DNA of 36,248 bases from a virus, in the IMG/VR virus record IMGVR_UViG_3300035663_000053, positions 1 through 36,248 of that record; one strand, given 5' to 3'. A program made the translations under genes and the position numbers. The notes under the pieces were generated by a model. That model worked only from the letters and a program-made list of their open reading frames with translations, had not been told where the DNA came from and ran no database searches. Below are positions 8,119 through 31,191 of this stretch, one piece after another; positions within the stretch are counted from its first letter, which is position 1; each line of letters begins with the position of its first letter.

Positions 8119-8144
8119 TAAGTTATTGTAATTTAGTAACTTAG

Positions 8145-8166
8145 ACCCCGCTTCGGCGGGGTTTTT
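8145..8166 (+). terminator. Strong rho-independent terminator with UUCG tetraloop
   Basis: ACCCCGC (8145-8151) pairs with GCGGGGT (8156-8162) around a TTCG loop, followed by a T run. The cUUCGg loop is unusually stable, and this is the best terminator in the window. It lies 27 bp after the capsid stop and should end the head transcript. Confidence 0.93.
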
Positions 8167-8182
8167 ATTTGTATTAAGGTAC

Positions 8183-8211
8183 TATACAAACACTATTAGA
8201 TATGGTATAAA
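8183..8211 (+). promoter_or_regulatory. Putative extended -10 promoter for the tail/fibre/lysis genes
   Basis: TATAAA (8206-8211) is preceded by TG one base upstream (8203-8204), which is an extended -10. TATACA (8183-8188) sits 17 bp away and matches four of six -35 positions. It lies 17 bp after the UUCG terminator and 64 bp before the next start codon. The predicted leader would carry a small GGGCG/CGCCC hairpin (8222-8236) and an AAGGA site (8261-8265). It repeats the terminator-then-promoter layout seen at 1169-1231. Confidence 0.6.
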
Positions 8212-8274
8212 GCATGTATTCGGGCGTGTACCGCCCATTAACCTGAGTGGTTCAAGCCATAAGGAAAAAATAAG

Positions 8275-9024
8275 ATGCAAATTTCAGATGATTTAATGCT
8301 AGGTCCAGTTTACACTGGTACTAACGGCGCTTCAAATACAGCAGGTCCATCACTAATGGAATTAGGCGTAGGCCCTATGGGTCGCGTGTTTATTTGGGAT
8401 GTAGTGCCTTTAACTTTACAAACAGCAGGTTTAGCTGCTTCACAATCACCAACTGGCGCTTCTAACTTAACATTGGTAGCTGGTACAGGTGTTACAGCAA
8501 TTACAAACGACCCAAGCGGTGTTACACGTTACTCACTAGATACACCACGCGTTGTGACTTTAACTTCAGCTACAGCTTCAACTAACGCTGGCGTTACATA
8601 CACAATTACTGGTGTTGACCAATACGGTCAACGTATGACAGAAACAATTATTGGTCCACTAGGATCATCAACTGTAACCAGCGTTAAAACTTACAAATTT
8701 GTAATCTCTATCGCTCAATCAGCTACATCAACAAGCATTACTGCGGGTTATGGCGATGTTTTAGGTCTGCCATACCGTTTACTAAGCCGTGACTATGTAG
8801 TTGGTGCTAACTTCAATGCTACAGCAGTTGCTTTATCAGCATTTACAGTAGCTGATGCAACAACACCATCAGCAACAACTGGCGATGTACGTGGTCGTTT
8901 GACACTACCATCAGCAGCAGACGGTGCTAAACGTGTGGTTGTTTCACTAGCTATCCCTGGTATTGCAGCAGGTCCTAGCGCAACACGTGTTGGCGCATTA
9001 GGCCTAAATCAATTCTCAGCGTAA
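8275..9024 (+). CDS. Virion structural protein, beta-rich
   Basis: A 249-residue protein dominated by Thr, Ser, Ala, Gly and Val, with beta-sandwich-like strand patterns, for example TYTITGVDQYGQRMTETIIG around residues 116-135. It has no Cys and no catalytic signature. It follows the major capsid gene but comes after a terminator and new promoter, so its expression is set separately from the coat. Host-optimised codons (CGT, GGT, GCT) suggest high expression. Likely a capsid decoration or head-tail region structural protein; the exact place in the virion cannot be read from sequence. The start follows AAGGA. Confidence 0.6.
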   Translation: MQISDDLMLGPVYTGTNGASNTAGPSLMELGVGPMGRVFIWDVVPLTLQTAGLAASQSPTGASNLTLVAGTGVTAITNDPSGVTRYSLDTPRVVTLTSATASTNAGVTYTITGVDQYGQRMTETIIGPLGSSTVTSVKTYKFVISIAQSATSTSITAGYGDVLGLPYRLLSRDYVVGANFNATAVALSAFTVADATTPSATTGDVRGRLTLPSAADGAKRVVVSLAIPGIAAGPSATRVGALGLNQFSA

Positions 9025-9032
9025 CTATGATT

Positions 9033-9060
9033 GGGGGCTCTAGGGTAACCTAGGGCTTCC
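9033..9060 (+). promoter_or_regulatory. 12-bp RNA hairpin with GUAA (GNRA) loop
   Basis: Bases 9033-9044 pair with 9049-9060 across the four-base loop GTAA: nine Watson-Crick pairs and three G-U pairs. It fills most of the gap between two structural genes, 24 bases before the next start codon. There is no T run after it (TAATTA follows), so it is not a classic terminator. An mRNA-stabilising, processing or attenuating role is possible. Confidence 0.6.
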
Positions 9061-9084
9061 TAATTATCAGTAAAGGATAAAGAC

Positions 9085-9369
9085 ATGAGCGCAATCTCAC
9101 CTAGGTTAGGTTATGTAGTCGTAACACAAGCAGCAGGCGTACTTGTTAAAGGAAGCCCTGCAGGGTTCTACGGCTTAACAGTAACCGCTTCAACATCTGG
9201 TTCAGTAACTGTTTACGACAATACAGCTGGTTCAGGTACAATCTTATTTACAAAATCATCATTAGCGGTAGGCGATGTCATTCAGTTTGGTGGCGCAGGC
9301 ATAGCAGCTAAAAATGGTTTGTTTGTTGTATGCGGTGGTACGGCCACTGTAAACATTTTATACGTATAA
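9085..9369 (+). CDS. Small beta-rich virion protein
   Basis: A 94-residue Gly/Ser/Thr/Val-rich protein that should fold as a small all-beta domain: YVVVTQAAGVLVKG, FYGLTVTAST, SVTVYDNTAG and FVVCGGTATVNILYV. The pattern of a tissue-like beta barrel with a YDN/AGSGT turn resembles small capsid decoration or spike-accessory proteins found beside adaptor genes in aquatic phages. It starts after AAGGA downstream of the 9033-9060 hairpin. One base separates its stop from the next small gene. Function is inferred from composition and position only. Confidence 0.6.
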   Translation: MSAISPRLGYVVVTQAAGVLVKGSPAGFYGLTVTASTSGSVTVYDNTAGSGTILFTKSSLAVGDVIQFGGAGIAAKNGLFVVCGGTATVNILYV

Positions 9370-9370
9370 A

Positions 9371-9529
9371 ATGCCCAGTAAATCTAAAGCACAAAAAAAG
9401 CTAATGGATGCTGTAGCGCATTCAGAAAAGTTTTCTAAAAAAGTAGGCATCCCAATGGAAGTCGGTAAAGACTTTGTAGCGGCAGATAAAGCTGCAGGGA
9501 AAAGGAAGTTACCTAAACGGAAAAAGTAA
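9371..9529 (+). CDS. Short basic DUF3008-like protein (52 aa)
   Basis: A 52-residue Lys-rich protein beginning MPSKSKAQKKLMDAVAH and containing VGKDFVAADKAAGKRKLP. This resembles small phage proteins of the DUF3008 type, which begin PxKSKAQ and carry a GK-E/D-F-ADK segment. Coding is supported by fit: one base after the previous stop, and its stop TAA is followed immediately by the next ATG. It is found next to head-tail joining genes in other phages, but its job is unknown; the basic charge would allow DNA or capsid-interior contact. The match is by eye. Confidence 0.7.
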   Translation: MPSKSKAQKKLMDAVAHSEKFSKKVGIPMEVGKDFVAADKAAGKRKLPKRKK

Positions 9530-10522
9530 ATGACAACATCAGGGACAATCGGTGCAACCACCGTAGAAACAAGGAAAGTACTTGAACACGCAATTCGCCG
9601 CGTGGGTATTTCTGCTACTGCGCAAACCCCTGAAATTGTCGGTATAGCATTAGATAATCTATATTTGTTAATGTTAAATCTAGCTGCCAGAGGCATTAAC
9701 CTTTGGACAGTAGATAAACAGATTATCCCAGTAGTTGCTGGGCAAGTAGTGTATCCAATGCCTGCAGGTACTATTGATATTCTCAATATGGCTTACGCCA
9801 CGTGCACGTACGTCACAGGAACTAATGGCGCAAGTGCTACTACCTACCAAGTACAATTATCGTCTCCTACAGCGATTGTGCGCGTCGGTTTTACGCTAAC
9901 AGCCCTCCCAACCTCTGATTTGCTTGTACAATCGAGTTCAGATGGTGTAACTTGGACTACAACAACCACAATTGATACCACATTATTCCCAGCAGTTAAT
10001 CAGTTGGCGTATTTTGATGTGGGAACAAGTAATGCAAATGGCGCAACATATTGGCGTCTTTTTGCAAATGGCGCAACGTTTACAGCAACGCAATTATTGC
10101 TAATCAACAAAATTAGTGAGTTACCAGTCCCGCAAATGAATCGCGACGACTATTCAGCACTACCAAACAAGTACATTCAAGGTCGTCCGTCAGTAAACTT
10201 CTACTACGAGAAATTGGTCAACCCGCAGTTTAGCGTATGGCCAGTATCTAATAACTCAACGGATATGTTGGTTATTTGGCGTTACAGACAAATTCAAGAC
10301 ATCGGTAACTTATCCGAGACAATGGAAATACCAGCACGTTGGTACGAGGCCATTATTTGGCAACTCGCGGCTCGCCTATGTTATGAATTGCCGCAAGTCG
10401 ATGCAGCTAAAGCACAACGTGTGATGGGCGAAGCGGATAAATGGTTATCTGTTACAGAAGGTGGCGAGACAGACGGCTCACCAATCTACTTTACGCCAGG
10501 CATCGGTGTGTATAATAGGTAG
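9530..10522 (+). CDS. Head-to-tail adaptor, P22 gp4-like, with inserted beta module
   Basis: A 330-residue protein likely binding below the portal to extend the DNA channel. The N-terminal helices and following strand match P22 gp4-type tail accessory factors: LYLLMLNLAARGINLWTV (about 44-61), then GQVVYPMP (71-78) and TIDIL. The usual continuation, RDDYSALPNKYIQGRP (205-220), then FSVWPV and helices WYEAIIWQLAARLCYELP, only resumes after an extra 95-192 segment. That insert is beta-rich, with VQSSSDGVTWTT and YWRLFANG, which recalls discoidin/F5-F8 type C sugar-binding jelly rolls. Neighbours (zinc-ribbon protein and SU10-type adaptor) support the connector role. Adaptor call moderately firm; insert identity tentative. 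Confidence 0.75.
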   Translation: MTTSGTIGATTVETRKVLEHAIRRVGISATAQTPEIVGIALDNLYLLMLNLAARGINLWTVDKQIIPVVAGQVVYPMPAGTIDILNMAYATCTYVTGTNGASATTYQVQLSSPTAIVRVGFTLTALPTSDLLVQSSSDGVTWTTTTTIDTTLFPAVNQLAYFDVGTSNANGATYWRLFANGATFTATQLLLINKISELPVPQMNRDDYSALPNKYIQGRPSVNFYYEKLVNPQFSVWPVSNNSTDMLVIWRYRQIQDIGNLSETMEIPARWYEAIIWQLAARLCYELPQVDAAKAQRVMGEADKWLSVTEGGETDGSPIYFTPGIGVYNR

Positions 10523-10525
10523 CAT

Positions 10526-10759
10526 ATGCCAGTATATTTACCAGCTAAGAATAAAGGTACAATGGCAATTGCGGTCTGTGGCCGTTGCAATGTTAAAATG
10601 TACCTAGATGATTTAAAAGCGGATGGTAACAGTCCAGGTTTACGAGTGTGTCAAGATTGCTGGGATACAAAAGACCCATGGCGCTTACCAGCACGTAAAA
10701 CTGAAAACATTACCGTTAAATACCCAAGACCTGATACTGATATAGCGACTGAGATATGA
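10526..10759 (+). CDS. Small zinc-ribbon-like protein
   Basis: A 77-residue protein with two CxxC pairs, CGRC (about 18-21) and CQDC (about 42-45), spaced as in a rubredoxin-type zinc ribbon. Between them is MYLDDLKADGNSPGLRV, and after them a Trp-Asp-Pro-Trp motif and a basic/Pro-rich tail. It lies between the two adaptor genes, and its last bases overlap the next start (ATGA), suggesting translational coupling. Similar small Cys-rich proteins occur beside P22 gp4-like genes, but I know of no assigned function; a structural zinc site in the neck is plausible. An internal Met at residue 13 (MAIAV) would still keep both Cys pairs. Confidence 0.75.
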   Translation: MPVYLPAKNKGTMAIAVCGRCNVKMYLDDLKADGNSPGLRVCQDCWDTKDPWRLPARKTENITVKYPRPDTDIATEI

Positions 10760-11391
10760 CAACTGCTGCAGCAATGACCTATGATAGTCTCGTAGAAGAC
10801 ATCAAAACATACGCAGAGCGTAACGATGCCCCATTCGTGGATCAAATTCCACGTTTCATTATGATGGCAGAAAACCGCCTTGCGTCAAGCTTGCGCGGTT
10901 TAGGCATGTTAAAAATTGTGTCTGGTACGTTACTACCGAGCCAATCAACGTATCAAAAACCTGTTAGATGGCGCGAAACAGCGTCATTTAGTATTATGGT
11001 AGGCACCCAACGCCAATACTTGTTTGAGCGTGGTTACGAATATTGCCGTACATATTGGCCTAACCCAAATGATACAGGTGTACCAAAATACTATGCAAAC
11101 TATGATTACGAGCATTTCTTTTTAGCTGCAACGCCTGATTTAGCGTATAATTTTGAATTGAGCTATTACGAGCGTCCACAACCTTTGGATACTGTAACGC
11201 AAACAAATTGGGTTACACGTTATTGCCCACAGTTACTTCTGTATGGTGCTTTGTTAGAAGCACAACCGTTCTTGAAACTACCAGAACGTATTGCTGAATT
11301 TAAAGGGTTTTATGACGAGGCAGTGAAAAACTTCCAACAAGAATCGCAGCGTCGTGCGATTGACCAAGCAAATTTAAGGACTGAAGCATGA
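10756..11391 (+). CDS. Head-tail adaptor, SU10 adaptor family-like
   Basis: A 211-residue protein resembling the SU10-type adaptor that joins the portal to the nozzle. It starts with YDSLVEDIKTYAERND and then IPRFIMMAENRLASSLRG, a typical helical opening for the family. A beta part follows with RQYLFERGYEYCRTYWP and YFELSYYERPQPL-like strands, and a helical C-terminus contains LLLYGALLEAQPFLKLPE. It starts in the ATGA overlap with the zinc-ribbon gene and ends in the ATGA overlap with the fibre gene, so the adaptor and fibre are likely coupled. Two adaptor-type proteins in a row (this and 9530-10522) fit a multi-ring podovirus neck. Confidence 0.75.
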   Translation: MTTAAAMTYDSLVEDIKTYAERNDAPFVDQIPRFIMMAENRLASSLRGLGMLKIVSGTLLPSQSTYQKPVRWRETASFSIMVGTQRQYLFERGYEYCRTYWPNPNDTGVPKYYANYDYEHFFLAATPDLAYNFELSYYERPQPLDTVTQTNWVTRYCPQLLLYGALLEAQPFLKLPERIAEFKGFYDEAVKNFQQESQRRAIDQANLRTEA

Positions 11392-13544
11392 CGAATTTTG
11401 TTGATGTTTTTGGTGGTCAAGTCACGCCACCATCAGAATACGGCTATCAAGCCACTACCATTGCAAGCAATACCACGGCATACTGGCCATACAACTATGC
11501 TGGTACAGGCCTTGTATTGGCCAAAAACAATGACATTACTGCTTCCGCCGCCAGTTTAGCGCTTACGCTACCCAATGCCACAGAGGTGTCAACGGGTGAA
11601 GACTTCATTGTTAAAAATGCAGGCTCTAACAGTTTTGAAGTAAAAGACAATGCGGGTAACACTCTTACTACAATTCTTGCAGGTGTTGCAAAGTATTTTG
11701 TACTGACAAACAATAGCACGGCAGCAGGTGTATACGATGTCACTACTTTTGGTACTGGTACCTCTAGTGCCGATGCTGGTATATTGGCTGGTGCAGGTCA
11801 CCGTGTTGATGGCGACGCCATTGACAACATTGTTGCAAACAATTCAATTGGTGCGTCGTATACCATCAGTGCAACAGACAACGCAACAACACTGGTATAC
11901 AAAGCAGGTACAGCAACGTTAGCATTACCTAATCCAGCAAGCCTATATAATGGATATTACTTCATTTTTATTAATGAAGGAACAGGTACAGTTACCCTAG
12001 ACCCCACAGCATCAGTTACGATTGATAGTAGCCTAACTAAAGATTTACAACCAGGCGAATCATGCATTGTAACCACCGACGGTGTGCTGTACTACACAGC
12101 AGGTTACGGTCGTAGCAATACCTATGTGTGGACGCAATTAACTGTTGATTTAACAGGGTTGTCAGCTTACACAGTTACATCCACACAAGCACAAAATAAA
12201 CTTTGGTATTTCTTCAATACCCCAACAGGAAGCATGACAGTTACTATCCCTGCGGTAGCTAGTGTTTACTTCTTACGAGTAGGAGCAATTGGGGCGTACA
12301 CGCTAACATTTAGTACTGGATCAGGTGCTACAGTAGGGTTAACAGCTAATCAATCCTACATTATTTATTGTGATGGTACGAACATCACAGCAGCACAGAC
12401 AGTTGCAGTAGCTTCAACTTTAAGTCTAAATGATGGTAGCGCCGCAAGCCCGACTTTATACTTTACGCTAGATACTGACACAGGTCTTTACCGCGTAGGC
12501 AATAATCAATTAGGTATTGCAACAGGTGGCGTACAATCCGCTTACTTTGCTACAGATGGCTTACATGGTAATGTAACAGGGGATATTAGTGGTACGGCTA
12601 CTAACGCTACAAACGTAGGCATTACAGACGATACAGCAACAGCATCAACTGTGTACCCAACATGGGTTACTGCTACTACAGGTAATTTACCTGAAAAAGT
12701 AAGCAGTACTAAACTTACATTTCAGCCGTCTACGGGTACTTTAACAGCACCAATTTTTGCAGGTGCAGTAACGGGTACGGCTACTAACGCTACAAACGTA
12801 GGCATTACAGACGATACAGCAACAACATCAACTGTATACCCAACATGGGTTACTGCTACTACAGGTAATTTACCTGAAAAAGTAAGCAGTACTAAACTTA
12901 CATTTCAGCCGTCTACGGGTACTTTAACAGCACCAATTTTTGCAGGTGCACTTAATGGTAATGCCGCTACTGCAGGTAAGAGTACTAATCTTATTGGTGG
13001 ATCTACAGGCGCAGTACCTTACCAATCTGCAGTAGACACCACAACATACTTAACGCCAGGTACAAATGGGTATGTGTTAACTACGCAAGGCCCAGGATTA
13101 CCTCCAGTTTGGTCCGCAGGGGTGCCAGCAGCAACAGCGGGTAATATACTAGGTGGTAGTGCGGGGCGAGTGCTCTATCAAATTGCAACAGATTCTACTG
13201 GTTTTACAACGGTAGGTGTAGCAGGCCAAGTTTTAACTTCAAATGGTACTTCTGCACCGTCTTGGGGGACAATATCATTAAATACCGTTACAGGTTATTT
13301 AGATATATTAGGTACAGCAGTAGAGGGTGCTAACATTAAACTGTATGAAGATACAGATAATGGAACAAACTATGTATCTTTCAAAGCGCCTAACACAATT
13401 GCAACAAATGTAACGTGGACTTTACCGGATGCTGATGGGGTAAGTAGTCAAGTATTAACTACAAATGGCGCGGGTACCTTATCATGGACTACACCGTCAG
13501 TAGGCGTTTCAACAGCTAAAGTTTATTTTATGGGACAATTTTAA
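11388..13544 (+). CDS. Tail fibre/appendage protein with tandem duplicated modules
   Basis: A 718-residue Thr/Ala/Gly/Ser-rich, beta-predicted protein. It starts MTNFVDVFGGQV, possibly the virion-attachment end, overlapping the adaptor stop. Several recurring modules are visible: TVTLDPT-type and TLALPNP beta units near residues 170-220, and a SPTLYFTLDTDTGLYR-NQLGIATGG unit near 355-385. Two nearly identical 59-residue copies follow at 402-460 and 463-521. Then come two GGS-G-V-YQ modules (about 530-570 and 583-630) ending in P-W, and a C-terminal KLYEDTDNGTNYVSFKAP unit. Such repeats form fibre shafts that present a receptor-binding tip. No enzyme or intramolecular chaperone domain is seen. 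Location in the particle is inferred. Confidence 0.75.
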   Translation: MTNFVDVFGGQVTPPSEYGYQATTIASNTTAYWPYNYAGTGLVLAKNNDITASAASLALTLPNATEVSTGEDFIVKNAGSNSFEVKDNAGNTLTTILAGVAKYFVLTNNSTAAGVYDVTTFGTGTSSADAGILAGAGHRVDGDAIDNIVANNSIGASYTISATDNATTLVYKAGTATLALPNPASLYNGYYFIFINEGTGTVTLDPTASVTIDSSLTKDLQPGESCIVTTDGVLYYTAGYGRSNTYVWTQLTVDLTGLSAYTVTSTQAQNKLWYFFNTPTGSMTVTIPAVASVYFLRVGAIGAYTLTFSTGSGATVGLTANQSYIIYCDGTNITAAQTVAVASTLSLNDGSAASPTLYFTLDTDTGLYRVGNNQLGIATGGVQSAYFATDGLHGNVTGDISGTATNATNVGITDDTATASTVYPTWVTATTGNLPEKVSSTKLTFQPSTGTLTAPIFAGAVTGTATNATNVGITDDTATTSTVYPTWVTATTGNLPEKVSSTKLTFQPSTGTLTAPIFAGALNGNAATAGKSTNLIGGSTGAVPYQSAVDTTTYLTPGTNGYVLTTQGPGLPPVWSAGVPAATAGNILGGSAGRVLYQIATDSTGFTTVGVAGQVLTSNGTSAPSWGTISLNTVTGYLDILGTAVEGANIKLYEDTDNGTNYVSFKAPNTIATNVTWTLPDADGVSSQVLTTNGAGTLSWTTPSVGVSTAKVYFMGQF
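12591..12950 (+). repeat. 183-bp tandem duplication inside the fibre gene
   Basis: Copies at 12591-12767 and 12774-12950 are 177 bp long, spaced by 183 bp, and differ at only two positions that I see: GCA to ACA (Ala to Thr) and GTG to GTA (silent). They encode residues 402-460 and 463-521. The unit is a whole number of codons, so copy-number change would keep the frame. Confidence 0.95.
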
Positions 13545-13553
13545 GGATTAATT

Positions 13554-13865
13554 ATGGCTACAGGTATTTTAGGACAATCAAGCCCCGCAGCAACCACAAA
13601 CACAACGGTTTATACGGTACCTGCGGCTACAACAGCAACATTTAACGTGTCAATTGTTAACACATCAATCTCAACTGCTACAGTAAGGTTAGCGATTGCT
13701 GCTACAGGCACACCGACAACAGCAGAGTATTTAGAATACGATACAATATTACCACCTAATGGTGTACTAGAACGAACAGGTATTGTTGCTCAAGCAACAG
13801 AAAATGTTGTAGTTTACGCAAGTGCTACAGGTCTAAGTGTAAGCGTTTATGGATATGAGGAGTAA
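13554..13865 (+). CDS. Small beta-rich appendage/decoration protein
   Basis: A 103-residue protein predicted as an all-beta sandwich: ATNTTVYTVPA, FNVSIVNTS, VRLAIAATG, then YDTILPPNGVLERTG and VVVYASATGLSVSVYGYE. The pattern of an early YTVPA strand, EYLEYD and LERTGI is common in small proteins coded beside tail fibre genes of marine and freshwater phages. It has no Cys. It lies between two fibre-type genes with AAGGA ahead and four bases before the next start, so it probably forms part of the same appendage or caps it. The exact function is unknown. Confidence 0.65.
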   Translation: MATGILGQSSPAATTNTTVYTVPAATTATFNVSIVNTSISTATVRLAIAATGTPTTAEYLEYDTILPPNGVLERTGIVAQATENVVVYASATGLSVSVYGYEE

Positions 13866-13869
13866 TTAA

Positions 13870-16683
13870 ATGGGTCGTTCAATAACAACAAGTAATACAA
13901 CAACAAGTCCACAAATTGGTAATCAAGTAGCGCAAATTTACAGCGCAACAGGTTATCAAGCAGGTGACTTAGTTTATAACGTAAATGGTGCTTATGGCCC
14001 AGTATCTGATACCGCAGTATCTACAGCTACATTCCCAGTTACTGCTACTCAAACTTTTGCTTCAGGCAATACAAACTATGGTTTGTTTGATGTGGTTGAA
14101 GGTAATAACGCAGGTACGCAATTCTCAAATCCAGCAGATTTATTGACGAATGGTAATACTGTTGTTGTGTGGATACAAGGTTCATATACTGGTAGAACTA
14201 CATCTGCTGCATACTTTAAAATTATAGACAGTTCAAATAACGAAGTTGTAGCACCAACAATTATAGCAACAGGATTAGGTGGCAATTCAGTATATGGTCA
14301 AATTGGTGTAGTTGCTTTAACAGGTGGTGGCTTTGCGGTTGCTTATCGTGGTGCTAGCAATACTTTATTTAGGGCAGTATATTCTAATACTGGCGCTGTT
14401 GTTTTTGCAGCAACAGATACAACATACGCATTGAATACTACTTACCTTACATTACGTATGACTGCAACAACTGATGGTAAATTTGCAGTTATTTATGTAT
14501 TAACAACATCTAATAATTGGTTCTTAGATATATATAACGCTGATGGGTCATTAGGTTCTCATATCACATTAGGCGCAACAGCAACCATTAATGAATATTC
14601 TGCTGGTATTGCAGCACGTAACAATGGCGGTACGCATGAAATTGGGTTTTGCTATGTATCAACAGCAGCTATTCTTAGATATGGTGTTTACAATACAGCA
14701 GGAACTGTCCGTTTAGCAGAAACTAGTCTTACCCCAGCAAGTCTTCTTTCAACTGATATGTGTTTAAACACAACAGATAACAATTTTGTTTTACTTTATA
14801 TAAATGCAAGTAATTTAACTTATTTTAGAATTAATACAACCCCAGCACTTGTTTCTGGCGCTACTATTTTTACTAGTGCTAACTTAGCCCCTGTTTTTGC
14901 AAAAGGATTAAGTACAGGTGGATTCTTTGTACTTACAGGTGGAACTTCTACACAAGCAAAATCAGTACCTTATTGGATATTTAATGGCACTTATACAAGA
15001 GTATCAGCAAACCCTGGCTTTATTAGAGGTATTTCTAGTCAAAGTTATAATGGCTATAGTGCAACAGAATCTGGTGGCGTTTTAACTATATATGGCGCAA
15101 CGCAATCAAGTACAGAAAATTCTGGACAACCTACGTATACCTCTTACATGGGTATGATTTATAGATTTAAAGTAAATACAAGCACATACTTACAAGTTCC
15201 TTCCAACACAACTTATAATGCGACTAACGTAGTTGGGAATACAAGCGCACTTGCTGTAAGTGGTTATGCACGTTCTGCTTCAACACCATCTTCTGCTAGT
15301 TTTCTTGCGACAGCATCATCTACACAAAGTATTACATTCCCAGTAACTAGCGGTACAACTGGTTTTGTAGTTCCACAAACGACTATAGATACTGCGTTAG
15401 CAGATTCTATAGATTGCGATACATTGTCAAATGGCAACATTGTAATTGTATATAGATTAAACAATACTTTTCAAGTAAGAATGGCAGTTTATACACAAAC
15501 AGGGGTGTTGCTTAATAACACAACGGTTGGAATAGGAATTTCATCAACAGGCCAATGGCAATCTGCATCTGTAGCAGCATTACCTAATGGTAAAATTGTT
15601 GTCGTATATTATTCAGCAAGCACAACTTTAAGTTATGCTATTTATTCGTCTACTTATACATTATTAAGTTCTGGTACGTTAATAGCAGCATTAGGTGGAT
15701 GGTCAACTGATAGAACCGCACGCATAGCAGGATTAAGTGATAATAGATTTGCTGTAATATACTCATTAACTGGAACAAGTGTTACAAATTATGCTGTTTA
15801 TGATGATACTGGAACAGTTGTACAGTCAGAAACTCAAACTCCAGATGGTCAAACAGCTTCTTATTTTAAAATTGCTGGGGCAACAGATGGTGGTTTTGCT
15901 ATGTGGTATGTTCTAACAGGCAATACTACATACTGTACTCATATTACAAAAACTGGTGCAGATACATATCAACAAGTAGCAGCTAGTGTTACAAGTATAG
16001 GGAGTGTTAGCAATCAAAATGCTACTAATGCAATGGTTGTTGGTCCTGATAATACTATATATGTATATACACCATCATCTGTAAGTGCTTCTAGAACATA
16101 TAAAGTTAATCCTTCAAATGTTCTTTTAAGTAGTCCTACTGCACAGAGTGGAATAAATAGTGGAAATGCGTATGCTTCAATAACAATAACAGGTTCTGGT
16201 CAAGTTGTTGCGTATAATACACAGGATTCTACAGGGGCATATTATGTATATACTGGTAATGGACAAAATGCAACATTTATAACTACTAGCAAATATGCTG
16301 GTGGTATAGGCGCAATAGTTTCAATGACAGGTGGTTTTAATGATACAGCAGTAATTGCTATGTTAAATAGTAGTCAACAACCAACATTTATGATTATTAA
16401 TGTAGCAGCAACTACTTATAGTAGAACAATTACAGCAGGAGTATCAACATCAAATGGTACTACATTAGCACCGTACGGCACTCCCCCATATTATCTAGTT
16501 GGCGTGTCGCAAACAGCAGCACCAGCAGGTGGTGTAGGTACTGTGCAGACTAATGGTTCTGCGGTATTAAATAGCAACTACTCAGCATCAACTACTGGGC
16601 AATTCTTTGATTTTGATACACCTAATACGTTTGGTGTAAAAGGTTCAATCTCTGGTCGCAATGTAACAATGACAAGGACTTAA
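13870..16683 (+). CDS. Large repeat-rich beta (propeller-like) appendage protein
   Basis: A 937-residue protein of unknown exact function that looks like a host-recognition appendage. Repeating units of roughly 45-55 residues run along most of it, each with a G-G/D-G-F/K-F/I-A-V-I-Y core and a V-Y-N/D-x-x-G turn: GGFAVAYRGAS, GKFAVIYVLTTS, GNIVIVYRLNN, GKIVVVYYSAS, NRFAVIYSLTG and GGFAMWYVLTG. Such blades suggest one or more beta-propellers, as in sugar-binding or adhesin proteins. It begins MGRSITTSNTTTSPQIG and ends with a short tail FGVKGSISGRNVTMTRT. Cys are few. Its A+T-rich codons contrast with terL. It lies between the small beta protein and the Gly-rich protein in the fibre block. Receptor binding is inference. 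Confidence 0.7.
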   Translation: MGRSITTSNTTTSPQIGNQVAQIYSATGYQAGDLVYNVNGAYGPVSDTAVSTATFPVTATQTFASGNTNYGLFDVVEGNNAGTQFSNPADLLTNGNTVVVWIQGSYTGRTTSAAYFKIIDSSNNEVVAPTIIATGLGGNSVYGQIGVVALTGGGFAVAYRGASNTLFRAVYSNTGAVVFAATDTTYALNTTYLTLRMTATTDGKFAVIYVLTTSNNWFLDIYNADGSLGSHITLGATATINEYSAGIAARNNGGTHEIGFCYVSTAAILRYGVYNTAGTVRLAETSLTPASLLSTDMCLNTTDNNFVLLYINASNLTYFRINTTPALVSGATIFTSANLAPVFAKGLSTGGFFVLTGGTSTQAKSVPYWIFNGTYTRVSANPGFIRGISSQSYNGYSATESGGVLTIYGATQSSTENSGQPTYTSYMGMIYRFKVNTSTYLQVPSNTTYNATNVVGNTSALAVSGYARSASTPSSASFLATASSTQSITFPVTSGTTGFVVPQTTIDTALADSIDCDTLSNGNIVIVYRLNNTFQVRMAVYTQTGVLLNNTTVGIGISSTGQWQSASVAALPNGKIVVVYYSASTTLSYAIYSSTYTLLSSGTLIAALGGWSTDRTARIAGLSDNRFAVIYSLTGTSVTNYAVYDDTGTVVQSETQTPDGQTASYFKIAGATDGGFAMWYVLTGNTTYCTHITKTGADTYQQVAASVTSIGSVSNQNATNAMVVGPDNTIYVYTPSSVSASRTYKVNPSNVLLSSPTAQSGINSGNAYASITITGSGQVVAYNTQDSTGAYYVYTGNGQNATFITTSKYAGGIGAIVSMTGGFNDTAVIAMLNSSQQPTFMIINVAATTYSRTITAGVSTSNGTTLAPYGTPPYYLVGVSQTAAPAGGVGTVQTNGSAVLNSNYSASTTGQFFDFDTPNTFGVKGSISGRNVTMTRT

Positions 16684-16684
16684 A

Positions 16685-17485
16685 ATGGCTATTCAATCTA
16701 TACAAACAATTAATAATCCTTTTACTGGGGCTTTTGGTACTGGTCAAGTTAGGATTTTTACATCATCAACAAACTGGGCTGTACCAACAGCCATCTCAAA
16801 TGTAAGGGTTCGCTTATGGGGTGGCGGTGGCGGTGCTATTGGCGCATCGCCTTGGTATGGTGGTGGGGGCGGTGGTTTTGCTATGCGTACATTTTCATTA
16901 GCAGCAGGAACTACATCAGTTTCTGTTACAGTAGGTGCGCCTGGAGTAAGTCAAACATCTGGTCCTACATCAGTTACAGCAGGTGGTACTTCATCATTTG
17001 GTTCTTATGTATCAGCTACAGGTGGTGCAAGTGGCGGCACATCTCTTGGTGTAGGAGGTACTGGAGTTGGTGGTGATATTAGTGGTACAGGCGGTCAAGG
17101 TGGGGTAGGTGGAACATCAAATAGTGGTGGTGGTGGTGGCGTAGGTGGTATATTTGGTACTGGTGGAGATGGTGGTAATGTTACTACTGCTGTCGGTAGA
17201 AATGGTAATGCTGGCGGTGGTTCTTTATCATCTGGTAATGGTGGGTCTGGAACATTTGGTGTTGGTGCAATTAGTACAACTAACCCACCAACAACAGGAT
17301 TTTTAACACCAACTATTGATTTATTTGGTGTTGGTGGTGGTGGTAATAACAGTTTTAGTAATGGTGTCAATGGTGGTGGTGGATTTAGTAATGGTGGTAA
17401 TGGCGGTATGCCAGGTGGTGGTGCTGGTGCTACATCTGGCGCAGCAGGTATCCCTGGTGCTGGTTTAGTTATTGTGGAGTATTAA
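16685..17485 (+). CDS. Gly-rich tail fibre tip/adhesin-like protein
   Basis: A 266-residue protein beginning with about 45 ordinary residues (MAIQSIQTINNPFTGAFGTG, then IFTSSTNWAVPTAISNVRVRLWG). From there it is mostly Gly, Ser and Thr, with repeated runs of four to six glycines, and it ends AGAGLVIVEY-like. This resembles phage glycine-rich adhesins such as those of T4-related phages, in which polyglycine II helices pack around a receptor-binding tip; the closing VIVEY strand is also typical. Asn and Ser loops between glycine runs may vary to change host range. It is coded directly after the propeller-like protein and followed by a small fibre-accessory gene. Confidence 0.7.
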   Translation: MAIQSIQTINNPFTGAFGTGQVRIFTSSTNWAVPTAISNVRVRLWGGGGGAIGASPWYGGGGGGFAMRTFSLAAGTTSVSVTVGAPGVSQTSGPTSVTAGGTSSFGSYVSATGGASGGTSLGVGGTGVGGDISGTGGQGGVGGTSNSGGGGGVGGIFGTGGDGGNVTTAVGRNGNAGGGSLSSGNGGSGTFGVGAISTTNPPTTGFLTPTIDLFGVGGGGNNSFSNGVNGGGGFSNGGNGGMPGGGAGATSGAAGIPGAGLVIVEY

Positions 17486-17486
17486 T

Positions 17487-17717
17487 ATGAAATATGCACG
17501 CTTAGTAAATAATACAGCAGTTGAGATTATTACATTGCCAGACGGTTTTAATATTCAAGATTGCTACCATCCTGACCTTATTAAAGACATTGTGTCTGTA
17601 GAAGACGATGTACAGGTAAACTGGGTTCGTCAAGAAGACAGTACGTTTGTAGCACCTGCAATTGAGGAAATTGAACCTGTAGCACCTGAAGTAGTTACAA
17701 CTAAACCTGTTGCTTAG
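17487..17717 (+). CDS. Small tail-fibre-associated protein
   Basis: A 76-residue protein, start chosen at ATG 17487 because GGAG (17476-17479) lies seven bases upstream. A TTG further upstream (17472) would add five residues inside the previous gene. It begins MKYARLVNNTAVEIITLP with GFNIQDCYHPDLIK, a pattern met in small proteins coded just after tail fibre genes in many phages. It has a Trp/Gln segment near the middle and an acidic, Pro/Val/Ala-rich C-terminal tail. It could be a fibre assembly factor or a minor appendage protein. No catalytic motif is visible. Confidence 0.6.
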   Translation: MKYARLVNNTAVEIITLPDGFNIQDCYHPDLIKDIVSVEDDVQVNWVRQEDSTFVAPAIEEIEPVAPEVVTTKPVA

Positions 17718-17726
17718 GGATAAGCC

Positions 17727-17978
17727 GTGGACGAACAAGATAAACGACTAGAGCGCATTGAGTCTAAAGTAGACAGAATGTCAGAGGCCATCGTGTCTTT
17801 GGCGCGTATGGAAGAACGCATGATTACGTTATTCAAACGCATGGATACTTATGATGAGCAACAAAACAAAATAATCACAAAAATGCAAGATATTGAGGTT
17901 AAGCAGGCTTCGTCAGTCTGGGTTGAACGCGTTATGTGGGTATGTGTTGCAGCCATAATATCTTGGCTTTTTAAATAA
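17727..17978 (+). CDS. XhlA-like coiled-coil membrane protein (holin candidate)
   Basis: An 83-residue protein starting with GTG after AGGGA (17716-17720). Residues 1-62 are a charged coiled coil (LERIESKVDRMSEAIVSL, then MEERMITLFKRMD). Residues about 67-82 form one transmembrane helix (RVMWVCVAAIISWLF) ending with Lys at the extreme C-terminus. That topology, a soluble coiled coil followed by a single C-terminal helix, matches the XhlA-type holins/haemolysins. It heads the lysis block directly before the DUF5856-like and M15 endolysin genes. Alternative: a general membrane-anchored coiled-coil protein. Holin call is moderate and based on topology. Confidence 0.6.
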   Translation: MDEQDKRLERIESKVDRMSEAIVSLARMEERMITLFKRMDTYDEQQNKIITKMQDIEVKQASSVWVERVMWVCVAAIISWLFK

Positions 17979-17987
17979 GGACTTTAC

Positions 17988-18356
17988 ATGATTGGTAAAT
18001 TTATTGGCGTACTGTTCTTAAGCCGCGATATCGCCCATCGCGAGCACCTAAAGACCAAAAGCTATTCCCAGCACGTGGCGCTTGGTGCGTTCTACGATGA
18101 AATCACCGACTTGGCAGACTCCCTAACAGAAGCCTACCAAGGTCGTCACGGTATCATTGCGGACATCCCTATCTTTAATGAAGTAAGCGGCTCCACCAAA
18201 ACAACAGCGGCCGATAAGATACAAGAGATTTTGGATTTTATTGAGAAAGAACGCTACGACGCCATTAAAAAAGAAGACACACCGCTTCAAAATATTGTAG
18301 ATGAAATTGTAAGTCTATTCCTTTCAACCTTGTACAAACTAAACAATTTAAAATGA
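17988..18356 (+). CDS. DUF5856-like (ferritin-like helical) protein
   Basis: A 122-residue helical protein that resembles the phage family DUF5856, often compared with ferritin/Dps-like bundles. It has LFLSRDIAHREHLKTKSYSQHVALGAFYDEI (shown only in part: HREHLKTKSYSQH at 17-29) with conserved His and a DLADSLTEAYQGRHG stretch, then helices around residues 72-121. The AxxxHxLT-SY-H pattern mirrors the HWQT-SY-H helix of Dps-like proteins, but a metal centre cannot be confirmed. It lies between the holin candidate and the endolysin and overlaps the endolysin start (ATGA). Its role in lysis is unknown. Family call is by eye, moderate. Confidence 0.55.
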   Translation: MIGKFIGVLFLSRDIAHREHLKTKSYSQHVALGAFYDEITDLADSLTEAYQGRHGIIADIPIFNEVSGSTKTTAADKIQEILDFIEKERYDAIKKEDTPLQNIVDEIVSLFLSTLYKLNNLK

Positions 18357-18790
18357 AGCTATCAGAAAACTTTAAATTAGATGAATTTACCGCATCAGAG
18401 ACAGCACTGCGAAAAGGGATTGACAACACTCCCCCACCCCTCGTTACGGAAAAACTTCGTATGTTGGCTAATACACTTGAGCAAGTTCGTACTTTATTGG
18501 GCAATAATTCCATTCGCATATCTAGCGGTTATCGCTGCCTTGCTCTTAATCGTGCTATTGGAAGTGGTGATACATCTGCGCACGTATTGGGTTATGCCGT
18601 TGATTTTACGTGTCCAAAGTTTGGTACGCCCAAAGAAGTAGCCAACAAGATTGCAGAGTCATCAATTAAATTTGACCAGCTTATCTATGAGGGAACCTGG
18701 ATACATCTAAGCGTAGATCCTCGCAATCGCAGAGAAGTACTTACTGCGCATTTTGGCAAGGGTAAAACAAGTTATACAAAAGGGATTTAA
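18353..18790 (+). CDS. Endolysin, peptidase M15 (zinc D-Ala-D-Ala/L-Ala-D-Glu type)
   Basis: A 145-residue enzyme expected to cut peptide bonds in peptidoglycan at the end of infection. It starts LSENFKLDEFTASETALRKG and IDNTPPP, the usual opening of M15_3 (DUF882-like) peptidases, and holds IRISSGYRCLALN. The zinc ligands fit: His77 in SAH, Asp84 in AVDF seven residues on, and His118 in WIH. No signal peptide is seen, so it would need the holin to reach the wall. It follows the DUF5856-like gene with an ATGA overlap and precedes small membrane genes and spanins, which confirms a lysis role. Bond specificity cannot be told from the sequence. Confidence 0.9.
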   Translation: MKLSENFKLDEFTASETALRKGIDNTPPPLVTEKLRMLANTLEQVRTLLGNNSIRISSGYRCLALNRAIGSGDTSAHVLGYAVDFTCPKFGTPKEVANKIAESSIKFDQLIYEGTWIHLSVDPRNRREVLTAHFGKGKTSYTKGI

Positions 18791-18792
18791 TT

Positions 18793-19059
18793 ATGGATAT
18801 GACAAAAATCACCACAATGCTTTTCCCCGTAATGATTTCAGCTATTGCGTGGTTGCTCGGTCAAATGAGTTCTATGCAAGGTGATTTGATTGACATTAAG
18901 TCTAAGATGCCAGCCCTTATTACCAAACAAGGTGTTCCAACCGACAGCCCAATATCTGCTGAAGCACGTAATAAACTTAAAGAAGAAATGAACAACAAAC
19001 TTGGCGAGCTAAATGTTCGCATCCGAATCCTAGAAGAGCACGAAAAGGATAAAAAATGA
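18793..19059 (+). CDS. Small membrane protein with N-terminal helix and coiled coil
   Basis: An 88-residue protein with one transmembrane helix near the N-terminus (about residues 7-23, TTMLFPVMISAIAWLLG), a short Met/Ser/Gln linker, and a charged coiled-coil C-terminal half (KLKEEMNNKLGELNVRIRILEE). The topology is the mirror image of the XhlA-like protein at 17727. It has no signal peptide cleavage motif. It sits in the lysis block right after the endolysin and overlaps the next start by ATGA. Could be a second holin, an antiholin or a membrane regulator of lysis; no family assigned. Confidence 0.6.
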   Translation: MDMTKITTMLFPVMISAIAWLLGQMSSMQGDLIDIKSKMPALITKQGVPTDSPISAEARNKLKEEMNNKLGELNVRIRILEEHEKDKK

Positions 19060-19253
19060 ACTTTGATAGCGTAGGCGGTAGACGTTTTTTATTTGCGGTA
19101 GGACTGACCCTTGTCTCTGCCGGTTTGTTGCTTTCAGGCAAGTTAGCTAGTGGCGACTTCACTAGCATCGTAAACTTTAACGTAATTGCCCTAGTAGCGG
19201 GTCACACAGCCGATAAGTTCGCAGGGAAAAAGAATGATTCCACTACCGCTTAA
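19056..19253 (+). CDS. Small hydrophobic membrane protein, holin candidate
   Basis: A 65-residue protein with a strong transmembrane helix (about 11-27, FLFAVGLTLVSAGLLLS) and a second, weaker hydrophobic stretch (about 38-50, IVNFNVIALVAGH). The C-terminus is Lys/Asn/Thr-rich. Small proteins with one or two helices coded beside endolysin and spanin genes are commonly class II or III holins. Its start overlaps the previous stop (ATGA), and its last 20 bases overlap the i-spanin start. Which of the three membrane proteins here forms the holes is not decidable from sequence. Confidence 0.6.
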   Translation: MNFDSVGGRRFLFAVGLTLVSAGLLLSGKLASGDFTSIVNFNVIALVAGHTADKFAGKKNDSTTA

Positions 19254-19722
19254 TATAAAAGCCATCGCTATAGGTGTAGTGCTTTTAGCTACGTTCGTAG
19301 CAGGTTGGACAACGAACGGCTGGCGGCACGATGCGCAACTGAAGAAGGCACTGCAAGAGACCATAGAGCTGCAGAAAGCCTACGATGACTACGCTAGAGA
19401 GGTAGCGACTAAGTTTCAAAACCAACAAGCGGAACAAGCTATTGTATATAGAAATTTAAAAAGGAAGATAAACGATGTTACGGATAATCGCATATGTTTT
19501 GCTGACGGCAATGCTCTCAGCTTGTGGAACAGCGCTCTTACAGGGGACGTGCCCAAAACCTCCACAGGAACTACTAAAGAGACCGCCTCTACCAGTACCG
19601 CTATTACAGATGAGCAAGTCCTTACCAACGTCATAGAGAACTTTGAGCAAGCAAAATCAATTCGCGACCAATTGAACGCACTAATTGATTGGTACGAAAA
19701 CAATGAGGCAGTAGGTAAGTAA
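19234..19722 (+). CDS. Rz: Rz-like i-spanin
   Basis: A 162-residue inner-membrane spanin that with the nested lipoprotein bridges inner and outer membranes in the last step of lysis. It shows a single N-terminal transmembrane anchor (about 8-28, IKAIAIGVVLLATFVAGW) followed by a long periplasmic coiled coil (about 33-82). Next is a CFADGNALSLWNSALTG block (88-104), which matches the Rz/LysB-type C-terminal signature with an L-W-N core. The remaining tail is Thr/Ser-rich and helical. The start at 19234 follows AGGGA (19223-19227), six bases away, and lies inside the end of the previous gene. The o-spanin gene is fully nested in its +1 frame. Family call is strong from topology and nesting. Confidence 0.85.
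   Translation: MIPLPLNIKAIAIGVVLLATFVAGWTTNGWRHDAQLKKALQETIELQKAYDDYAREVATKFQNQQAEQAIVYRNLKRKINDVTDNRICFADGNALSLWNSALTGDVPKTSTGTTKETASTSTAITDEQVLTNVIENFEQAKSIRDQLNALIDWYENNEAVGK
19475..19636 (+). CDS. Rz1: Rz1-like o-spanin lipoprotein, nested in the i-spanin gene
   Basis: A 53-residue protein read in the +1 frame wholly inside the i-spanin gene, easy to miss because it is short. It begins MLRIIAYVLLTAMLSACG: a short basic start, a hydrophobic signal helix and the lipobox LSAC, so the mature lipoprotein begins at Cys17. The mature part is Pro-rich and basic (CPKPPQELLKRPPLPVPLL), as in lambda and P2-type Rz1/LysC outer-membrane spanins. AAGGAAG (19461-19467) stands about seven bases upstream of the ATG. 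Length, lipobox, proline content and +1 nesting all agree. It would bind the i-spanin periplasmic coil and fuse the membranes. Confidence 0.92.
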   Translation: MLRIIAYVLLTAMLSACGTALLQGTCPKPPQELLKRPPLPVPLLQMSKSLPTS

Positions 19723-19723
19723 A

Positions 19724-20098
19724 TTGTTACCACAACAAGAAGCCTTAATGTTAAATGGAGCGGATTGTCCGCTTCATTACCATTCATCAGACCGTATCCC
19801 TAACCACGATACGCTAAATGGCTTGCAGGCTATTGCTAAACAAGTATACCCAACTAACAGCACATACATTGTCACAGAAGACGATGACTACATTCTCTGC
19901 AATAGTATCTGCACAGTTACGCTACCCCCCGCTAAAAACGGCAATGAGGTTGAAGTAGTTAAACTTTTTAACGGGAATTATATTATAATACTGCCTACAG
20001 GCACGGACACTCTGCTGGGTGATACATCTGTGATAGTCTATGAACAGTGGACTGCCCTCAGATTTAAAGCTATTGCCGGAGGATGGATTTTAATATGA
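19724..20098 (+). CDS. Small beta-rich fibre/appendage protein
   Basis: A 124-residue protein if the TTG at 19724 is used (AGGTAAG just before it), or 116 residues from ATG 19748, which has a weak site. The second half is a run of beta strands with YIVTEDDDYILCNS, TVTLPPAKNGNEVEVVK and IIILPTGTDTLLG. This is the 'TLP-A-NG-V-V-K ... I-I-PTGTDTI-G' module of phage fibre proteins, ending W-ALRFKAIAGGWILI. It overlaps the next gene's start by ATGA. It lies after the lysis genes, which are thus inserted between parts of the appendage set. Start choice is uncertain; the module assignment is fairly good. Confidence 0.6.
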   Translation: MLPQQEALMLNGADCPLHYHSSDRIPNHDTLNGLQAIAKQVYPTNSTYIVTEDDDYILCNSICTVTLPPAKNGNEVEVVKLFNGNYIIILPTGTDTLLGDTSVIVYEQWTALRFKAIAGGWILI

Positions 20099-21327
20099 GT
20101 TACGTGCCAGGACAAATTACATATAGCAACAGCGTTAGTAATACTAACCTTGATGCTTTTGGACGTCTACGCGTAAGCAACCCATACACACTATTCGATA
20201 GCCAAAACCGCTACGCAATTGACAATCAATTCGATACTAGCACTGCCACAGGCGGTACAACAACGTACCTCTCTAATGAGTCTTCAGTAAACCTAAACGT
20301 TACTACCTCAAGCGGATCAGAAGTAGTCCGTCAGACGTTCCGTTCATTCCCTTACCAACCAGGCAAAAGCTTGCTAGTAATGGCTACTTTTGTAATGAAC
20401 GCACCCAAAGCTAACCTACGTCAACGCGTGGGCTACTTTAATACGAACGACGGTGTATTTTTAGAGCAAAATGATACCGCAGAGCCACGCTTTGTAGTTA
20501 GAACATCCACTAGCGGTACAGCAAGCGACGCGAGGTTCGCAGCGCAAAGTGCGTGGAACGTAGACAAACTGAACGGTACAGGCCCAAGCGGTATTACGCT
20601 AGATTTAACAAAAGACCAAATCATGTGGTATGACTTTGAATGGTTAGGTGTGGGTAATGTTCGTTGTGGCTTTATTATTAACGGTCAATTTATCGTATGC
20701 AATGTTTTCTACACCGCTAACCTTTTAACAAGCGTGTATATGAAGACAGCCATCTTGCCAATACGGTTTGAAATTACTAACACAGGCGCAACAGCATCCA
20801 ACTCTGCCTTAAAACAAATTTGCTCTACTGTCGTATCAGAAGGTGGTTACGGTCAAACTTCTATTGACCATGTCGCACGACGCACTACTGTTTTAGACCC
20901 AATTAACACAACTTTCCTACCCTTAGTTTCTATTCGCCTTAAGTCAACCGCGTTAGGCGCAGTGGTCCTACCAAACAAAGTACAAGTACTACCAACTAAA
21001 ACTCAAAACTATGAGGTAGCCCTTGTTAAGAACGCAACTTTAACTGGCGCTTCATGGGTTACATCACCCAGTGACCCAAACGTTGAATACGATGTGTCTG
21101 CCACAGCAATATCAGGAGGCACAATTGCGCAATCCGATTATGTAACATCAAGTAGCGCTGGTGGCAGAGCTGTTTTAGCAGCGGGTATAGATTATAATTG
21201 GGACTTACAGTTAGGTGCATCATTAGCAGGTGTTAGCGATATCTACACTATTCAAGTTAGAACAGTGTCAGGGGCAACAGCAGGTGATGCTTTTGCAACA
21301 CTTTCATTCTATGATTTAACACGATAA
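20095..21327 (+). CDS. Virion structural protein with DAFGRLRVSNP motif
   Basis: A 410-residue protein starting at ATG 20095, which overlaps the previous stop (ATGA). GGAGG at 20078-20082 is 12 bases upstream and far too close to the in-frame ATG at 20083, so I prefer 20095. After MSYVPGQITYSNS comes LDAFGRLRVSNPYTLFDSQNRY, a sequence pattern (only partly quoted here) that recurs in virion proteins of aquatic phages and giant viruses. Then a beta-sandwich-like region includes KDQIMWYDFEWLGVGNVRCG and a C-terminal domain of repeated Thr/Val/Ala strands. Likely an appendage or capsid fibre protein. No enzymatic motif is seen; partner unknown. Confidence 0.65.
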   Translation: MSYVPGQITYSNSVSNTNLDAFGRLRVSNPYTLFDSQNRYAIDNQFDTSTATGGTTTYLSNESSVNLNVTTSSGSEVVRQTFRSFPYQPGKSLLVMATFVMNAPKANLRQRVGYFNTNDGVFLEQNDTAEPRFVVRTSTSGTASDARFAAQSAWNVDKLNGTGPSGITLDLTKDQIMWYDFEWLGVGNVRCGFIINGQFIVCNVFYTANLLTSVYMKTAILPIRFEITNTGATASNSALKQICSTVVSEGGYGQTSIDHVARRTTVLDPINTTFLPLVSIRLKSTALGAVVLPNKVQVLPTKTQNYEVALVKNATLTGASWVTSPSDPNVEYDVSATAISGGTIAQSDYVTSSSAGGRAVLAAGIDYNWDLQLGASLAGVSDIYTIQVRTVSGATAGDAFATLSFYDLTR

Positions 21328-29082: not shown

Positions 29083-31191
29083 ATGGCAACTCCACAAGAT
29101 ATTTTAAATGCAGCTAACTTAGGCAGGGGTTCTGGTGGCGGTCTTACAGCCACGGCACCACAACCTCAGGCTGCGCAACAAGGCGCACTTAATTCTATTA
29201 AGCCTTCAGTTAGTGCCAGTGAAGATGTGCGTACACAATTAGAAGACCGCCTTTTAGGTCGTGCATACGGTGATGAGAATGTGGAAGGCAGTCTTGCAAA
29301 ACTAGGCAAGGATACTCAAGACAAATTACAGAAATTATCCGATTTCTACACGGACACAGCCCCTATTAGCGATGGTGAGAAATGGTTGGCAATAGGTCAA
29401 GGTTTAGGTGGGCGTAGACGTCGTGATGGCGGCTCTAGTATTTACCAAGCAGCTACTAGAGTAGGTGAGCAGTTACTACCTATTGCAACAAAAGAAAATC
29501 AATTAAAACAAGCTTACAAAGAAAAAGCTTTAACAATGATGTATGAAAGTTCTCAACTTGCATACAAACAAGCATTACAGGATAAACAGACCGCCGAGAA
29601 GCTATTATTAGCTAAATCTGGTGGTGCTGGTGGTCGCTACGAAATTAAAGTTGGTCCCAATGGCATGATGCGTATTGATAAATCTACTGGCGTTGCCGAA
29701 ATGATTGACCCAAACACTTTCTATCAAGCGCGTATGTCAGCCGAACAACGTGTTCGTGAACGCTTTAATAAGCAAGATACAATTGATCGTTATGCAGAAA
29801 GCTATGGGGCAGACGCAACACGTCAACTTAATGCAGATATGCAAGCAGAGCTTGATAAGTTAACCCCAGCGGCAATTGCTGAATTCGTAGGTACTACACA
29901 AAAACCTAGTGCGCAGGGCCAAGTACCGGGTGCTCCGCAACCTAGTGCTCAGAACGTAGCACCAAGTGCCTTGCCCGTAGCACCAAGCGCTCCGCAACCA
30001 AGTGCTGGGTTTGCTTCTGCGGTAGGTAACGTACTTCCACGTGAAGGCGGTTTTGTTGGTAAAGATGGTCAATCTGGCGCCCCTGCAAACTTTGGTATTA
30101 ACCAAGCAGCTAACCCAGATATTGATGTTAAAAATCTAACAGAAGATAAAGCAAAAGAGATATACAAATCTCGCTATTGGGATGCCATTGACGCAGACAA
30201 ATTAAACCCTGCTGCCCAAGAAATAGCATTTGATGCTGCAGTAAACCAAGGTCAAAGTTATGCTAAAGAGCTAATTCGTAAGACTGGTGGCGACCCTCAA
30301 AAAATGATTGACCAACGTCGTCGTGATTACATTAAAATAGTTGAGAAAGACCCTAAAAAAGTAAACGACTTTAGAGGCTGGATGAACCGCCTTGATGACG
30401 TTGCTGCTAAAGCAGGCGTTACTAGTCCTACGGGCCAAGTACCAGGTACTACAGGTGCGTCAGTAGAAGAACCAGTAGCAGAGACCGTTGCAGGGCCAAC
30501 CGTAGCGCCAAAATTAGAAGTACCAGCTTCTGCTAAAGGTCAAGTACCTGTAGTAACAAGTGCTACGCTTGAGGCCAACAAACAAACTGCTAAGACAGTT
30601 GCTGAAGCGCAAGGTAAGGCAAACGCCCTACTAATCCCAGGATCGCCTGAGTATATTAAACTTAAAGACGCGCAATCTAAAGATAACGAAATTATGCAAC
30701 GTCTTGATGAAACCTCAAAAAATGTAATGGGTGACATTAGTAAGCTGATTGATATTAAAGTTGACCCAAAAACAGGTAAGGAAATGTATAAATTAAAACC
30801 TGGTTTGGCGGCGTCTGTAGGCTCTATGGAGGGTACAGGTATGATTGGCGGGGTTAAAGGGTTCTTTAACCAAGATATTGCCAATCGTAAAGCCTTTATT
30901 GAAGGACTTAAAAACAAACTATCCCTATCTGGTTTAGAAGAACTTCGTAAAGCAGGTACCGCACCAGGCTCTATTACTGAAAAAGAGTGGCCACTTTTCC
31001 AATCATCCCTTGCTACAATGACAGCAACGATGGACGAAAAAGAATTTGCTAGCCAACTTATTAAAGTTAAAAAAGCTTTTGAAAACTTACAGGCAAAAGC
31101 TAAAATTAACTACGCTAAAAAATACGAAAATATTGGTGCTAAACCTGATACAGATGCTACAGATATTCTCGGCATCCGCAAACCAAAATAA
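29083..31191 (+). CDS. Internal virion protein with embedded GH108-type muramidase
   Basis: A 702-residue protein. The N-terminal third (1-230) is helical, with an Arg-rich GGRRRRDGG loop and basic/acidic helices, and a Pro/Ser/Gln linker follows (about 270-310). From about 317 to 440 it reads as a glycoside hydrolase family 108 lysozyme: VLPREGGFVG with the likely catalytic Glu321, then GAPANFGINQAANP, LTEDKAKEIYKSRYWD, IAFDAAVNQGQSYAKELI and DQRRRDYIKI. The remaining third is helical and charged. Such a virion-borne lysozyme would cut peptidoglycan locally while DNA is delivered, unlike the M15 endolysin used for exit. AAGG precedes the start. Domain call good by motif; the ejection role is inferred. 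Confidence 0.8.
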   Translation: MATPQDILNAANLGRGSGGGLTATAPQPQAAQQGALNSIKPSVSASEDVRTQLEDRLLGRAYGDENVEGSLAKLGKDTQDKLQKLSDFYTDTAPISDGEKWLAIGQGLGGRRRRDGGSSIYQAATRVGEQLLPIATKENQLKQAYKEKALTMMYESSQLAYKQALQDKQTAEKLLLAKSGGAGGRYEIKVGPNGMMRIDKSTGVAEMIDPNTFYQARMSAEQRVRERFNKQDTIDRYAESYGADATRQLNADMQAELDKLTPAAIAEFVGTTQKPSAQGQVPGAPQPSAQNVAPSALPVAPSAPQPSAGFASAVGNVLPREGGFVGKDGQSGAPANFGINQAANPDIDVKNLTEDKAKEIYKSRYWDAIDADKLNPAAQEIAFDAAVNQGQSYAKELIRKTGGDPQKMIDQRRRDYIKIVEKDPKKVNDFRGWMNRLDDVAAKAGVTSPTGQVPGTTGASVEEPVAETVAGPTVAPKLEVPASAKGQVPVVTSATLEANKQTAKTVAEAQGKANALLIPGSPEYIKLKDAQSKDNEIMQRLDETSKNVMGDISKLIDIKVDPKTGKEMYKLKPGLAASVGSMEGTGMIGGVKGFFNQDIANRKAFIEGLKNKLSLSGLEELRKAGTAPGSITEKEWPLFQSSLATMTATMDEKEFASQLIKVKKAFENLQAKAKINYAKKYENIGAKPDTDATDILGIRKPK

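Follow-up and report, generated by a model that had tools for sequence, protein, structure and literature searches.

The lysis cassette of the window, the 36,248-base IMG/VR virus record of an uncultured phage that was analysed here at its full length, encodes with a probability of about 0.95 a two-component spanin of embedded +1 architecture, made up of an Rz-type i-spanin and an Rz1-type o-spanin nested within its gene (Table 1). Both reading frames, their conservation, the constraint acting on the two frames, the lipobox and the position in the cassette are observed directly. The initial annotation had described a 53-residue +1 frame with an AAGGAAG site, a signal peptide, an LSAC lipobox and a proline-rich mature part inside an Rz-like gene, and all of these are present. 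The pair has the familiar layout of lambda Rz/Rz1 and is an ordinary new member of an established spanin architecture, rather than the unusual case that had been suggested, as embedded two-component spanins occur in 182 of the 677 phages of Gram-negative hosts surveyed in SpaninDB (Kongari et al. 2018, PMC6139136) and o-spanins are often left unannotated (196 of 528 systems, PMC6139136). The window is apparently a fragment of a phage genome, with an ORF running past its left end.

Table 1. Lysis cassette of the window and elements of the embedded o-spanin gene.
Feature	Position	Strand	Evidence
Endolysin, peptidase M15 type	18353..18790	+	phrog_894 E 2e-39; PF08291 E 3.1e-18
Small protein with an N-terminal TM segment, encoded between endolysin and spanins; candidate holin or accessory protein	18793..19059	+	One hydrophobic segment; only in some relatives
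65 aa membrane protein encoded directly upstream of the i-spanin gene, whose start it overlaps; candidate holin	19056..19253	+	Hydrophobic segment; adjoins i-spanin in many relatives
i-spanin (Rz-type), 162 aa, 162 codons	19234..19722	+	phrog_1403 E 1.3e-15; phrog_1152 E 1.6e-7; phrog_2466 E 5.9e-5
Shine-Dalgarno-like AAGGAAG of o-spanin	19461..19467	+	Read from sequence; 7 nt before ATG
Embedded o-spanin (Rz1-type lipoprotein), 53 aa, ATG start	19475..19636	+	ORF; +1 frame of i-spanin gene; kept in 51/51 loci
Lipobox LSAC, putative lipidated Cys17	19514..19525	+	Sequence; Cys17 invariant in alignment
Proline-rich core CPKPPQELLKRPPLPVP with second Cys, C26	19550..19600	+	o-spanin alignment; lambda Rz1 translation

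The o-spanin ORF lies wholly within the i-spanin gene and out of frame with it, at an offset of 241 nt that places it in +1. Its product (MLRIIAYVLLTAMLSACGTALLQGTCPKPPQELLKRPPLPVPLLQMSKSLPTS) has an Arg at position 3, a hydrophobic stretch, the LSAC motif ending in Cys17, which fits a PROSITE-type lipobox pattern (the pattern alone was used for this assessment), and eight prolines among 37 mature residues. The i-spanin consists of an N-terminal TM segment, marked by a single hydropathy peak (KD 2.07 at residue 4), a periplasmic region whose helical content is predicted from a low-confidence AlphaFold model alone (pLDDT 38, unusable as a model), a variable Thr/Ser linker and a conserved C-terminal segment. 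Each protein has an invariant periplasmic Cys, C26 in the o-spanin and C88 in the i-spanin; a periplasmic Cys is found in at least one component of 507 of 528 known systems (PMC6139136).

Relatives were gathered by IMG/VR searches with the i-spanin and its alignment, giving 51 loci that cover the site (a first set of 29, of which two break off within the ORF at the contig end, and a further 22), several of which are duplicate contigs. Across these loci i-spanin identity falls from 97% to 26%, and the +1 lipoprotein ORF is retained in every one that spans the site, preceded in relatives by Shine-Dalgarno-like variants (AAGGAAG, AAGGTAAG or AAAGGT). Stop codons in the +1 frame or loss of the lipobox Cys, put forward in the initial annotation as evidence against the nested gene, were looked for in the 51 loci and found in none. 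Total o-spanin length varies from about 40 to 86 aa, and a few loci have GTG as their nearest start codon. Among the 22 closer members the invariant residues are M1, L2, L9, L10, L14, C17, C26, P27, P29, P30, Q31, E32, L33, L34, K35, R36, P37, P40, P42, L43 and K48, while distant members preserve variants of the motif C-x-P-x-P-x-x-L-L-x-R-P. Three distant loci have unusual residues before the lipobox Cys, namely LWSC (L059), LPAC (L063) and TQLGC (L062), the Trp of LWSC being in the same place as in the experimentally verified AWAC lipobox (PMC6139136). An apparent loss of the lipobox in these three loci was an artefact of a strict pattern, the ORF and the Cys being present when the frames are read. 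This comparative evidence is decisive for the nested gene being real.

The length of the ORF is by itself weak evidence, because 5.8–8.3% of 20,000 recodings of the i-spanin gene with synonymous codons contain, in another sense frame, an ORF of 53 aa or more. That the +1 ORF is an untranslated frame left open by chance would agree with this figure and with the antisense frames being open too, but it is very improbable, as only one to six of the 20,000 recodings produced an ORF that reaches 40 aa and combines a basic N-terminus with a PROSITE-type lipobox, the +1 ORF is found in all 51 loci, and strong third-position constraint is limited to the overlap. Conservation and phase-specific constraint effectively refute a chance origin.

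The constraint was measured as Fitch parsimony changes per codon, counted over a set of 22 distinct sequences. In the +1 geometry the third and first codon positions of the i-spanin coincide with the second and third positions, respectively, of the o-spanin. For i-spanin positions 1, 2 and 3 the changes per codon are 1.60, 0.90 and 4.56 upstream of the overlap, 2.02, 0.92 and 1.73 within it, and 1.19, 0.93 and 4.30 downstream (Fisher p about 1e-12). The comparison of synonymous-site variation among related phages that had been proposed as a check thus finds third-position change in the i-spanin reduced in the overlap, from about 4.5 to 1.7 per codon. A tree built from non-overlap sites only gave the same outcome, with a position 3 to position 1 ratio of 0.85 in the overlap against 2.8–4.6 in all remaining windows of 49 codons; third-position change was as low in none of 100,000 permutations drawing random codon samples. 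The fall at third positions combined with the rise at first positions within the overlap is the signature of a second coding frame, as a translated +1 frame would predict.

RNA structure, or an antisense ORF of 123 aa that overlaps the region (19416-19787), might also reduce synonymous change in place of a +1 protein, but this is extremely improbable: first-position changes go up as third-position changes fall, which is expected of a +1 protein but not of an RNA element; antisense open lengths differ between relatives; and third-position change is back at background right after the overlap, still inside the antisense ORF. Moreover, what is conserved is a lipoprotein whose proline-rich core is invariant.

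Counts of invariant columns in the i-spanin and o-spanin alignments indicate how the two proteins share the overlap. The invariant o-spanin residues (CPxPPQELLKRPPxPxPL) overlie the variable Thr/Ser linker of the i-spanin, so that i-spanin residues 104-123, a Thr/Ser-rich segment with indels, have one invariant column in 20 while o-spanin residues 24-43, encoded by the same DNA, have 14 in 20. Over the o-spanin signal peptide the relation is reversed, with 14 of 22 columns invariant in the i-spanin segment VTDNRICFAD...NSALT against 5 of 22 in the o-spanin. A variable i-spanin linker over the o-spanin core is also what lambda genetics describes, mutagenesis having shown that the parts of Rz in which mutations are silent overlie the part of Rz1 that is essential, and conversely (PMC5295617).

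Profile comparisons relate both proteins to known spanins, through phrog_1403 for the i-spanin (E-value in Table 1) and phrog_456 for the o-spanin set. The o-spanin members match the Rz-like spanin families phrog_456 (21 of 22 members), phrog_1267, phrog_2425 and phrog_812, with weak and partial matches of which the best has an E of 6.8e-5; the window o-spanin alone reaches only E 0.03 against phrog_456. Lambda Rz1, used as a control, matches the same four families as well as its own phrog_3198 (E 1.5e-29), the latter being matched by none of the 22 o-spanin members at E ≤ 1. The i-spanin and lambda Rz have matches to phrog_1152, phrog_2466 and, marginally, phrog_13 in common. Pairwise, hhalign gave probabilities of 10.8% to lambda Rz1 and 19.7% to lambda Rz, so that the lambda pair has no clear pairwise sequence homology with the present one; weak pairwise profile matches are expected because more than 40% of families in the spanin class are singletons (PMC6139136).

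In gene layout the pair resembles that of lambda (NC_001416; Rz 45966-46427, Rz1 46186-46368), Rz1 being likewise wholly embedded in the +1 frame. The o-spanin begins 0.49 of the way along the i-spanin gene, against 0.48 in lambda, and ends at 0.82, against 0.87; the start lies at 0.4-0.5 L in about 70% of embedded o-spanins (PMC6139136). In both, the mature o-spanin is proline-rich and has a second Cys, with xKPP after it, nine residues beyond the lipidated Cys. Unlike lambda Rz1, the present o-spanin has no penta-proline run and is 53 rather than 60 aa long, and the endolysin is of the M15 type here whereas lambda has the R transglycosylase. The Rz1-type reading of the initial annotation is supported by the conserved lipobox Cys and proline-rich core, by the coding constraint proper to the nested frame and by the Rz-like spanin matches that it has in common with lambda Rz1.

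Short phage lipoproteins can have other roles. The nested ORF might accordingly encode a real lipoprotein acting, for example, in superinfection exclusion, while the Rz-like protein pairs with a different o-spanin, but this is very unlikely in view of the pairing with the Rz-like protein in every relative examined, mostly beside an endolysin, of the spanin PHROG matches shared with lambda Rz1, and of an embedded position and frame that are the same as in lambda.

Among cultured phages, the i-spanin of locus L064 used as query matched the Rz-like spanin of Bordetella phage vB_BbrM_PHB04 (NC_047861, HOS14_gp115; 30.5% identity, E 5e-9), whose gene contains an unannotated +1 nested lipoprotein-like frame (MVLSACGTVPSGLTCPPPPASLLVRPAEP...), although PHB04 is a much larger phage (94 kb) with another cassette order. 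A direct search of 50,697 phage records with the 53-aa o-spanin gave no match, the i-spanin gave marginal matches only, and no near-identical DNA was found there for positions 8000-20400 of the window. Scans of bacterial and archaeal genomes with the o-spanin protein and alignment yielded no relative, and the i-spanin profile found no significant match in the PDB. A crude motif search of two capsid relatives (Caulobacter phage RW and MW202545) found no embedded Rz1 of the present type. Phage RW has a separate lipoprotein-like ORF (L032:12970-13275, RW_GP071c; LLPCAACLPKRLPTPTP...) near an M15-like endolysin-type gene, with matches to phrog_2425 (E 7.7e-10) and phrog_456 (E 0.023), so related phages may have exchanged the module that acts on the outer membrane.

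Directly before the endolysin gene of the window lies a gene for a small protein (17988-18356; DUF5856 E 3.5e-21, and phrog_858, 'starvation-inducible transcriptional regulator'), and a similar-looking gene, RW_GP074c, is in the same place in phage RW. A 702-aa protein with a central GH108 domain (29083-31191; PF05838 E 6e-17, phrog_315), encoded within the structural gene block, is probably a virion-associated murein hydrolase. The ORF at 4665-5072 is located like the annotated GroES-like co-chaperonin gene of phage RW, and itself matched neither Pfam nor PHROG profiles at the thresholds applied. At the right end, a primase-like protein on the opposite strand (34340-36247; phrog_1156 E 2e-37, DUF3854, DUF5906) marks the border of the late gene block.

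The anatomy of the spanin pair fits each step of the lambda mechanism. By analogy, the i-spanin would be inserted in the inner membrane via its N-terminal segment and the o-spanin lipoprotein would reside in the outer membrane (PMC5295617, PMC6139136). After the holin and the M15 endolysin had removed the murein barrier, the periplasmic parts of the two proteins, bound together and probably stabilised by Cys disulfides, would pull both membranes together and fuse them, allowing the virions to escape. The initial annotation took the nested gene as showing an intact outer-membrane step, which is too strong for a function whose elements (translation, localisation, complex formation and membrane fusion) we infer from lambda.

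The odds are about even that the nested pair is old and has stayed continuously embedded in the same frame while i-spanins diverged to about 26% identity and endolysins and neighbouring genes changed; if so, the relatives could serve to assign the shared bases to one frame or the other. At one locus (L020:4492-5000) no M15 endolysin was found in the fetched flank, and after the spanin genes comes an endolysin of the GH108 type (PF05838 E 3e-26, PF09374), an instance in which the endolysin changes and the spanin pair stays.

Caulobacter phages RW, GB2A, RLK and KcrB have major capsid proteins 64% identical to the likely one of the window (7189-8118), and phages of Roseobacter, Pelagibacter, cyanobacteria and Alcaligenes gave weaker matches. 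The hosts of these phages are all diderm. The Gram-negative host of the initial annotation is plausible, since the nearest cultured relatives by capsid infect Caulobacter, though inferred. A diderm host is likely on two grounds, the capsid relatives and the o-spanin, which completes the lysis cassette of this uncultured phage group. The case again shows that short embedded o-spanins need to be searched for by hand (196 of 528 unannotated, PMC6139136), and the relatives provide support from natural sequences for the result of lambda mutagenesis that two frames divide the DNA they share.
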